A stretch of 64,000 bases of DNA from Bdellovibrio sp. 22V. Its GTDB lineage: Bacteria; Bdellovibrionota; Bdellovibrionia; Bdellovibrionales; Bdellovibrionaceae. The stretch lies in assembly GCF_030169785.1 (NCBI RefSeq), contig NZ_CP125854.1, positions 2,914,001 to 2,978,000 on the forward strand, read 5' to 3'. Each line of letters starts with the position of its first letter. Positions within the stretch are counted from its first letter, which is position 1. Below the pieces are notes generated by a model. It did not search any database. It was given only the letters and a program-made list of their open reading frames with translations, and was not told the origin of the DNA. Shown here piece by piece: positions 28,754 through 31,152 of the stretch. The position numbers and the translations under genes were made by a program.

Positions 28754-28836
28754 ACAAAAAATTCTACCGTAATCTCCGATGAGCGCAACAATTTGAGGCA
28801 TTTCATTAAAAGACCCCGCGTGTTAAACCCTCCCTC

Positions 28837-29388
28837 ATGAGACAAATATTTTTATTTCTTTTGCTTATTTTTTCGACATCGTTTGCCTTGGGTGCTGCGC
28901 CCGCTATCAAGGGCTCCGATCTTGTCACAGCCAAAGAAGAAAATTTGCAGTTCCCAACATCGACTCTCGCCACGGTGATTGTTTTTGTTTCCGCCCAATG
29001 TCCCTGCTCTGCCAGTCATGAAGATGTTCTTAGAAACCTAAGCCAAGAGTTTTCAGAAATAAAATTCATCGGAATCCATTCTAATTCAGATGAAACTCCG
29101 GAAATCACGAAAGAGCATTTTACTCAAGCATCCTTACCTTTTTCCATTCTTCAAGATGAAAGAAACAAATGGGCCAATGAACTGGGCGCTCTCAAAACTC
29201 CGCACGTCTTTGTTTTCAGTAAGAACGGCGAGCTTATCTATCAAGGTGGAGTGACCGACAGCCATGTGGGGCCTAGTGCAAAAAAGAATTTTCTGAAAGA
29301 AGTGCTTGATGACATCCGCGCTGGCAAAAAGCCACGCCACAAAGAAGGCCGCGCCTTAGGATGCTATATTCAAAGAGAGGACGACTAA
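28837..29388 (+). CDS. Exported redoxin (thioredoxin-fold, CPCS active site)
   Basis: First gene of a four-gene operon. Signal peptide (1-19, ending ALG) and a thioredoxin/AhpC-TSA-like fold: VIVFVSAQCPCSASHEDVL places a CPCS motif (Cys ~55 and ~57) at the N-terminus of the first active-site helix, followed by FIGIHSN, the cis-Pro strand LKTPHVFVF and GELIYQGGVTDSH. The two cysteines are one residue apart, unlike the CxxC of thioredoxins, so peroxiredoxin-like or thiol-based metal handling is possible. Its stop overlaps the next ATG (TAATG). Located in the periplasm. Confidence 0.86.
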   Translation: MRQIFLFLLLIFSTSFALGAAPAIKGSDLVTAKEENLQFPTSTLATVIVFVSAQCPCSASHEDVLRNLSQEFSEIKFIGIHSNSDETPEITKEHFTQASLPFSILQDERNKWANELGALKTPHVFVFSKNGELIYQGGVTDSHVGPSAKKNFLKEVLDDIRAGKKPRHKEGRALGCYIQREDD

Positions 29389-29804
29389 TGAAAATCTTCT
29401 TTTCACTCGCGGTTCTGCTCCTTGGTGGATGTGCGCGCCCCGATTATGTTTCTAGCGGTGATTTACAAAAGCAAATGGATCCGCACGCAAAACAGCAATC
29501 CATCATGTTCCCGGTTTCGCAAGCACCGGGAACCCTCGAATGGCTGACACCGCCCTCCAGCAGCGAAGCTTCTTCTTTGCTTTTGAGTTTTGCCTCTCCG
29601 TTACCGGCGGAGCTTTCAGCACTTCTATGGATGCCTTCGATGGGCCACGGCTCTGCGCCGGTAAAAATAGAAAAACTCGACGAAACCCATTATCGCATCA
29701 CCAATATCTATTTTATTATGCCTGGCGATTGGGAAGTCCGACTGTATCTAAAGAAAAACAGTCAAACTGTGGATGAACTTTTTATTCCGCTGATGGTACC
29801 ATGA
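29388..29804 (+). CDS. Lipoprotein with a YtkA/FixH-like domain
   Basis: A 138-residue protein with lipobox LLGGC (Cys17), so probably attached to the outer membrane. The domain contains LLWMPSMGHGSAPVKIEKL and YFIMPGDWEVRLYL, the pattern of YtkA/FixH-like beta-sandwiches (a Met/His-Gly loop then a W-x-V/R-x strand). The last gene of the operon encodes a paralogue with the same motif (GHGSSPVKI). ATG 29388 overlaps the redoxin stop; the TGA overlaps the next ATG (ATGA). Possible metal-binding through Met/His; not proven. Confidence 0.83.
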   Translation: MKIFFSLAVLLLGGCARPDYVSSGDLQKQMDPHAKQQSIMFPVSQAPGTLEWLTPPSSSEASSLLLSFASPLPAELSALLWMPSMGHGSAPVKIEKLDETHYRITNIYFIMPGDWEVRLYLKKNSQTVDELFIPLMVP

Positions 29805-30700
29805 GAATATCAATTCTTTTTCTTTTCGCTCTTTCGCCCTCCCTTTCGTTGGCTGCGAGTTGCTGCGGCGGCGGATTTTCTATCCCCGCGTTGATTCTTG
29901 GCGACGATAAAGCACAGGTGACCAGCACTTATTCTTATTCTGAAGTCAGCGACGAAGTGCTCGCAAACGGAAAATGGCTTCGTCGCGATGACGGCAACAA
30001 TTCGCAAACTCTTAAACTTGAAGGCGCCTTGCTTCTTTCGGAGGGACTGCAAACGGGAATTTCTCTTCCGATGATCGCAAAATCTTCGGACTCTTCCGAG
30101 AGAAGCTCCGGCGTCGGTGATGTTTCGATTTATTTGGGACACGAGACCTTTGCGGAAACAACCTATTCTCAATGGAAACCCAAAGGCGTTACGTTTTTAC
30201 AGCTGACCCTACCGACCAGTCCGTCTGTCTATGACGAAGACGCAACGACCGCTAACGAAATTCGCGGACGCGGGTTTTACAGTCTGGGAGCCGGTCTTGC
30301 CTTATTAAAAACTTTGCGCGTTTGGGACTACCACGTGAGCGCCGAAATTCATCGCTCTTTCACGCGAGATGTCTCCAATGAAAACTTCGGAGGAAACGCG
30401 ACGGTGATTCCGGGTTGGGGCACGTCGCAAACTCTCGGGGTGGGATGGAACCGTGGTGATCTTCGCTTGGGAAGTGCGCTGAGTTTTCTTTATGAGGAAG
30501 CGATTTCTATCGACGGTGTCACTCACTCTGAGGGAACTGCGCAAAAAAACTTTACCTGGGGTCTTTCTGGCAGCTACATGTTGAGCTTAGAGTCTGCCAT
30601 CACGGTGAGTTACAACGATCAAACTTTGATCGGGAATCCAATTAATTCAAGTTTAAGTAAAACAATTAATTTAAGCTACCAGCAACGCTGGCCTCGCTAG
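29801..30700 (+). CDS. Outer-membrane beta-barrel-like protein with a mature N-terminal CCGGG motif
   Basis: A 299-residue exported protein. After the signal peptide (about 1-19, ending LAA) the mature protein begins SCCGGGFSIPALI. The rest is rich in alternating strands with Gly, Ser and aromatic residues, for example LQTGISLPMIAKS, GVGDVSIYLGHETF, WDYHVSAEIHRSF and a C-terminal strand TINLSYQQRWPR, consistent with an outer-membrane barrel of 10-12 strands. The vicinal Cys pair is a candidate metal-binding site. It is translationally coupled to the lipoprotein upstream and precedes the second YtkA-like gene by 8 bases. Confidence 0.8.
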   Translation: MRISILFLFALSPSLSLAASCCGGGFSIPALILGDDKAQVTSTYSYSEVSDEVLANGKWLRRDDGNNSQTLKLEGALLLSEGLQTGISLPMIAKSSDSSERSSGVGDVSIYLGHETFAETTYSQWKPKGVTFLQLTLPTSPSVYDEDATTANEIRGRGFYSLGAGLALLKTLRVWDYHVSAEIHRSFTRDVSNENFGGNATVIPGWGTSQTLGVGWNRGDLRLGSALSFLYEEAISIDGVTHSEGTAQKNFTWGLSGSYMLSLESAITVSYNDQTLIGNPINSSLSKTINLSYQQRWPR

Positions 30701-30708
30701 GAGATTTT

Positions 30709-31152
30709 ATGAAAATACTATTTACTTTAATTTCCGCATTTCTCGTCGGTGCTTCTACCGCTTATGCCTGCGCGGAACACGCGACCGAACACACGCAGGT
30801 TGTGCACGAAGACAGTGCTTGTCCAATCTATTTCAAAAACAATCAGCTTTGCGCGGAAATTGAATTTGCAAAAGGGCCTTTTAACGGCGAAGAGTCCCAG
30901 TTTATCGTGAAGTTTTTTGATCATGCCTCTGCTCACGGCGAGCACGTTATGAAAGATCCGGCCCATCTCAAAATAGATTTGTGGATGAATATGGGCCATC
31001 ACGGCCACGGATCTTCACCTGTTAAGATCGTGAAACAGGATCAAGGCGTTTACTTTGTTTCAGAAGCTTATTTTGTCATGGCCGGACGCTGGCAAGTGCG
31101 CTTCTTCGTTAACGGCGAACAAGCGCAGTACAACGTCGACGTAGAACCTTAG
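30709..31152 (+). CDS. Exported YtkA/FixH-like protein (paralogue of the lipoprotein two genes upstream)
   Basis: A 147-residue exported protein, signal peptide 1-19 (ending AYA). The N-terminal part is unusually rich in Cys and His (CAEHATEHTQVVHEDSAC, then CAEIEF), and the domain core WMNMGHHGHGSSPVKIVK followed by YFVMAGRWQVRFFV is homologous to the operon's lipoprotein. The Met-Gly-His-His cluster suggests copper or another soft metal, which is inference. AGGAG precedes ATG. The gene ends 3 bases into the convergent KH-protein gene, so this closes the operon. Confidence 0.85.
   Translation: MKILFTLISAFLVGASTAYACAEHATEHTQVVHEDSACPIYFKNNQLCAEIEFAKGPFNGEESQFIVKFFDHASAHGEHVMKDPAHLKIDLWMNMGHHGHGSSPVKIVKQDQGVYFVSEAYFVMAGRWQVRFFVNGEQAQYNVDVEP

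Follow-up and report, generated by a model that had tools for sequence, protein, structure and literature searches.

A conserved redoxin–YtkA–barrel gene triad in Bdellovibrionota is a candidate module for soft-metal handling at the outer membrane

Four plus-strand genes, here called RDX, YtkA1, BAR, and YtkA2 (Table 1), follow one another almost without gaps in the 64,000-nucleotide stretch of DNA analysed here (the window), which comes from the 3.6-Mb, single-contig genome of Bdellovibrio sp. 22V. At the RDX/YtkA1 junction (GACTAATGAAA), the stop codon TAA (29386–29388) and the start codon ATG (29388–29390) overlap as TAATG. The YtkA1/BAR junction (CCATGAGA) is an ATGA overlap, with the ATG at 29801 and the TGA at 29802–29804, and the BAR stop codon TAG (30698–30700) is followed by eight bases (GAGATTTT) and then by the YtkA2 ATG at 30709. 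We took YtkA1 to start at the overlapping ATG 29388; the ORF list has 29361. These junctions, read directly from the sequence, agree with a preliminary description of the DNA, as does the export of all four proteins, each of which has a signal peptide by inspection. The same description held the two YtkA-like proteins to be paralogues, one a lipoprotein and one soluble. Indeed, they share about 30% identity overall; YtkA1 has the lipobox LLGGC (Cys15), while YtkA2 lacks a conserved lipobox and is rich in His beyond its signal. They are the only two YtkA matches in the whole genome. The CPCS motif of the redoxin and the SCCGGG mature N-terminus of the barrel protein, read here as (A)SCCGGG, were also found as described.

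A motif conserved in a genus-wide alignment, GCAAC(A)ATTTG(T/A)GGC(A/G)TT ... CGTGTTA(G/A)AA, lies just 5′ of the RDX start, and its letters in the window are GCAACAATTTGTGGC...CGTGTTAGAA. The candidate promoter/operator region that contains it also lies upstream of a divergent gene, whose ortholog-supported start at ~28753 defines the left edge of the region. The ORF listed for this divergent PF10136 gene is probably too long at its start (28754–28801); its orthologues begin at an internal ATG (MFRKLKAF).

Table 1. Features of the locus, in window coordinates.
Feature	Position	Strand	Description
Upstream intergenic region	28754..28836	+	Candidate promoter/operator; from alignment of upstream regions
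RDX	28837..29388	+	Peroxiredoxin-like protein of thioredoxin fold (DUF6436/Redoxin), exported; CPCS and C-terminal GC-x-I motifs
CPCS motif of RDX	28999..29010	+	Residues 55–58; CPC conserved
GCYI motif of RDX	29359..29370	+	Residues 175–178; C-terminal
YtkA1	29388..29804	+	Lipoprotein with YtkA-like (PF13115) domain; lipobox by inspection
MPSMGHGS of YtkA1	29631..29654	+	Residues 82–89; predicted metal-site motif
BAR	29801..30700	+	12-stranded, probably outer-membrane β-barrel; COG4313/FapF fold
Cys21-Cys22 of BAR	29861..29866	+	Invariant; mature N-terminus
YtkA2	30709..31152	+	Exported, soluble YtkA-like protein rich in His; fourth, accessory gene
MNMGHHGHGS of YtkA2	30985..31014	+	Residues 93–102; predicted metal-site motif
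MAGRW of YtkA2	31078..31092	+	Residues 124–128; Met aligns with CrdA Met99

RDX matches DUF6436, Redoxin, and AhpC-TSA in Pfam, with no match to the Sco family PF02630 (SCO1-SenC) among Pfam families up to E 1, and its NCBIfam matches are to thiol oxidoreductases only, all below cut-off. It has the fold of the peroxiredoxin-like proteins 2cvb and 2ywi, and shares with them and with DUF6436 the active-site CP and the C-terminal GCxI. However, it differs from these proteins in that CPC (CxC) replaces CPxx, and in that it is nearly always accompanied by YtkA and barrel genes. The residues invariant throughout the family are F50, S52, C55, P56, C57, S58, H61, G175, C176, and I178. A scan for RDX over 84,980 species genomes, built on a subset of the alignment (the broad redoxin alignment being too divergent), gave a list of the best 80 loci, of which 38 are close and 42 more distant. 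Among these listed loci, CPC is found in 38/38 module-type RDX proteins compared to 1/42 homologues outside. The CPC redoxins, including one partnerless Ignavibacteria sequence, form one side of a branch with support 99/97. The CPCS-carrying redoxin from Ignavibacteria (L106:4791-5483) has neither a YtkA nor a barrel gene nearby. The CxC pair and the third conserved cysteine would suit either Cu(I) ligation or thiol oxidoreductase activity.

The curated PF13115 cut-off of 25.9 bits is exceeded by YtkA2 (33.4) and just missed by YtkA1 (24.0). The AF2 model of YtkA2 (pLDDT 85) is an Ig-like sandwich, and its best match in the PDB is CrdA in both the apo and the Ag-bound forms (Z 11.7–11.9, rmsd 2.2–2.3 over 95 residues); the YtkA profile also matches CrdA (9ll2) at E 0.003. 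Methionines 69, 72, and 99 of CrdA belong to a proposed Cu(I) cluster (PMC9182242). In the profile alignment, with CrdA residue numbers converted by a fixed offset of 15 derived in this analysis, the YtkA methionines of LWM (invariant), SMGH, and M-x-G-x-W align on Met69, Met72, and Met99, respectively, and the invariant YtkA histidine aligns beside Met75. M82 and H87 of YtkA1 are invariant in 40 sequences, and the Met/His/Met residues proposed as copper ligands are invariant in 38–40 YtkA sequences. Nearly all members of a broader set of 52 retain them as well, the exceptions being L088:5573-6034 and L091:5511-5972. In these two, M-(S/T)-C-C-G-S stands at the site, with Cys-Cys-Gly in place of Met-Gly-His, and the distal methionine is missing; Cys-Cys instead of Met/His/Met is a swap to another soft-ligand set. 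Together with the sister genes in copper clusters and the Bacillus CtaK precedent described below, these alignments and models give good support to copper as the probable YtkA ligand.

YtkA genes also occur in other settings. In a genome of the same genus (G005, L161:1102-5865), YtkA is clustered with a CsoR-family gene, a multicopper oxidase, CopC, and CopD, and in a genome of the same order (G047, L148:1876-4091), PCuAC, Sco, an unidentified gene, and YtkA stand in a row. The G005 cluster also holds an exported 400-aa protein outside any Pfam family. Solo YtkA genes (L150:3556-4467, L151:3772-4722, L152, L153, and L154) lie beside a conserved small gene (IIEMEISAVVRYLHYALMIKGP...) that looks ferritin-like by eye, at a position shared by several genomes of the genus.

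BAR matches no Pfam family. Its AF2 model, based on 35 sequences (pLDDT 90.2, pTM 0.83), has twelve strands, and its structure matches are led by FapF (Z 27.2) and the COG4313 channel 4rl8 (Z 25.8), with the rest at 19 or below; its sequence profile matches FapF at E 4e-10. In 4rl8, the segment preceding strand 1 folds into the lumen and blocks the channel (PMC4493636). The equivalent segment of BAR opens with the invariant Cys-Cys and has a length that fits a plug, but residues 23–25 have pLDDT <50, a low model confidence that makes the position of Cys21-Cys22 tentative. By analogy with 4rl8, we suggest that the segment may serve as a lumen plug. Signal cleavage of the AxA type, two residues before the first cysteine, would fit the sequence, and lipidation at the Cys-Cys is unlikely, as Pro or Val directly precedes the first cysteine in some members. 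One relative (G011) has a barrel gene with one in-frame TGA (L017:1486-2385), either a pseudogene or a sequence error.

The first three genes form a unit far beyond the window. All 38 close RDX loci among the 80 listed have CPC, and 36 of them hold the barrel, with RDX-YtkA-BAR in this order at every uncut locus (36/36, in Bdellovibrionota-type genomes); at the other two (L074 and L104), the contig ends before the barrel. Some of the 38 records are labelled Deltaproteobacteria or Proteobacteria. The remaining 42 redoxin homologues come from Bacteroidota, Cyanobacteriota, and other phyla, and their flanks, as far as examined, contain no YtkA or barrel gene; it is solely from these flanks that we judge the barrel to be absent outside the phylum. 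The plasmids searched held generic redoxins only and no barrel, and the viral contigs searched gave none. Within the phylum, the barrel is present in 128 of 241 genomes. Among 60 relatives, counting the genome studied here, 39 have it, and the order of the three genes holds at nearly all loci examined in these relatives. The second YtkA gene lies 3′ of the triad in part of the genus, as it does in the window; elsewhere, it is found upstream (often divergent) in some genomes or at a distant site, and in Bacteriovorax-like genomes it lies downstream in a diverged form. Besides this gene, no steady neighbour family was found at the triad loci. Hence, of the four-gene unit put forward in the preliminary description, the triad RDX-YtkA-BAR is what is conserved; the four-gene form is limited to some members of the genus, and the second YtkA is a wandering accessory. 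The PF10136 gene and a KH-domain gene were rejected as parts of the module, as they adjoin the triad within the genus only.

The three genes are also inherited together. When the 60 relatives are treated as independent, the YtkA profile matches 38/39 barrel-positive and 0/21 barrel-negative genomes (Fisher p 3e-15), and RDX, called at E <1e-50 (generic relatives are at 1e-23 or weaker), is present in 37/39 and 1/21, respectively (p 1e-12); both p values are inflated by shared ancestry. The sole barrel-positive genome lacking a YtkA profile match (G058) has a diverged YtkA-like gene adjoining its barrel. RDX is missing from the barrel genomes G024 and G054, the latter with its locus on a short contig, and in G050, the one genome where RDX occurs without a barrel, the contig stops inside the YtkA gene. 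G035 has kept RDX, but ~105 kb from the rest. Joint absence recurs, since G004, G015, and G017, all of the same genus, lack all three genes. The constant order at the uncut loci listed, together with this joint loss, rules out chance adjacency. Scattered homologues without co-occurrence, which the preliminary description had named as evidence against its proposal, are therefore not what is seen; order is kept and co-occurrence is near-perfect. On the other hand, the triad does not co-vary significantly among the 60 relatives with COX2 (36/39 with the barrel, 18/21 without; p 0.65), multicopper oxidase (p 0.14), or PCuAC (p 0.56). Because it tracks neither the CuA oxidase, multicopper oxidase, nor PCuAC, the triad is not simply an oxidase-assembly kit. 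A link to multicopper oxidase was rejected on the same test.

Each component resembles a known system, but none of these systems has the same set of partners. CrdA of Helicobacter pylori (9ll2/9ll4) has, like YtkA, an Ig-like fold (Z 11.9), is exported, and has the methionine positions of the proposed Cu(I) cluster. However, CrdA has no histidine and operates in efflux alongside CrdB and CzcBA (CrdAB-CzcBA), whereas YtkA carries M-x2-M-G-H and is partnered by a redoxin and a COG4313 barrel; no conserved neighbour of the CrdB/CzcBA type occurs at the triad loci. In Bacillus subtilis, YtkA is CtaK, a partner of Sco in assembling the CuA site, and one of its histidines is needed for function (PMC9145763, PMC13344008). 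Both CtaK and the YtkA domain of YcnJ support the copper loading of cytochrome oxidase. As here, these are PF13115 domains with conserved His and Met, and lipoprotein attachment is shared. CtaK is nevertheless a Gram-positive protein with a Sco partner and a CuA oxidase, whereas the triad has no Sco partner, includes an outer-membrane barrel, and has a distribution unlinked to the CuA oxidase. The COG4313 channels (Pput2725, whose structure is 4rl8, and SphA) and FapF have, like BAR, a 12-strand barrel, and the pre-strand-1 segment of BAR would be expected at the lumen as in that fold; BAR differs in its invariant Cys-Cys mature N-terminus, in having no FapF coiled-coil part, and in its lack of a Pfam match. 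No Fap or catabolic genes are conserved beside it, RDX and YtkA being the sole conserved neighbour families. The cop-type copper resistance operon with a CsoR-family regulator holds a YtkA gene in a same-genus genome, but the triad, unlike this operon, is without multicopper oxidase, CopC, and CopD. Literature on 9ll2, on DUF6436, and on redoxins with YtkA contained nothing on this gene set, in keeping with the preliminary description, which knew of no named system with it. The triad is thus a real, conserved module, whose parts are known folds and whose combination is new as far as the searched papers show.

We think it somewhat probable, at little better than even confidence, that the triad is a compact module of the outer membrane and periplasm, working under thiol control as a relay for Cu(I) or for another soft metal like it. 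The YtkA lipoprotein, probably anchored in the outer membrane, and the soluble His-rich YtkA would bind Cu(I), held by a Met/Met/His/Met site on the Ig-like domain as in CrdA and probably CtaK. The N-terminal Cys-Cys segment of the COG4313-type barrel, located at or in the lumen, would act as a metal- or redox-sensitive plug, and the CPC redoxin would maintain the right redox state of the barrel cysteines or of the metal itself. Metal would then be exchanged between the channel and the YtkA carriers, in the direction of either import or export. A metal (perhaps copper) or thiol pathway spanning the periplasm and outer membrane had already been proposed in the preliminary description, and it stands as the best-supported reading, with three genes rather than four. 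It is backed by the match of the YtkA fold to a copper-resistance protein, the retention of the Cu(I)-site methionine positions, the sister YtkA genes in copper clusters, and the invariant cysteines of barrel and redoxin. Weighing against the relay, the loci examined show no gene for a copper regulator or copper enzyme that recurs steadily beside the triad. Also against it, the presumed cargo of the COG4313 channels investigated to date is hydrophobic molecules (in the case of FapF, an amyloid polypeptide) and not metal ions. It is unlikely, in our estimate, that the barrel is a dedicated Cu(I) gate, in which the Cys-Cys plug would bind the metal, the redoxin would open or reset it, and the YtkA lipoprotein would receive the ion; such a gate would be a route for metal of a different kind from the TonB-dependent and RND systems.

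Contained within the soft-metal reading is a more specific one, in which export of Cu(I) across the outer membrane would protect the cell from copper or silver encountered in its surroundings or in its prey. Both CrdA and the CopC-type neighbours are resistance proteins, but the module has no energy source, inner-membrane pump, or efflux adaptor, and we regard this version, too, as unlikely. A rather improbable alternative is an envelope thiol-redox or peroxide defence, where a disulfide relay would run between the CPC redoxin and the Cys-Cys barrel, leaving YtkA a structural or accessory role only. The invariant cysteines in the redoxin (CPC, GCxI) and barrel and the peroxiredoxin-like nature of the redoxin family fit this idea, which nonetheless leaves the strictly kept Met/His/Met site of YtkA unexplained, as well as the presence of its close relatives in copper clusters.

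Slightly less probable again is that the triad assembles the CuA site of cytochrome oxidase, with YtkA in the role of CtaK, the redoxin as a Sco- or TlpA-like partner, and the barrel admitting copper. There is precedent in CtaK and its pairing with Sco, and in the genome studied here COX2 stands next to a Sco-like gene while PCuAC is absent. However, COX2 persists in 18 of the 21 barrel-negative genomes, none of which has a YtkA match; Sco already adjoins COX2, the redoxin has no Sco-family match, and the profile tests for COX2 and PCuAC do not support such a kit. The least probable of the alternatives considered is the uptake or secretion of an organic cargo, either a hydrophobic molecule or a peptide, through the COG4313/FapF channel with the other two proteins as cargo handlers. 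The fold relatives of BAR, namely FapF and the uptake channels of SphA/TcpY type, fit this idea. However, the loci show no recurring partner family of a cargo, catabolic, or Fap kind, and the constant partners are instead a thiol protein and a copper-type domain.

For most Gram-negative bacteria, it is still an open question how copper passes the outer membrane and is handed over in the periplasm. With its strictly co-inherited channel, thiol protein, and copper-type lipoprotein, the triad provides a small, testable candidate for outer-membrane copper handling; the phylum that carries it is known for predators growing within other bacterial cells. The barrel Cys21-Cys22, the redoxin CPC, and the YtkA Met/His/Met residues are targets for point mutation, and the triad supplies a family context for protein groups that now match generic families only or none.
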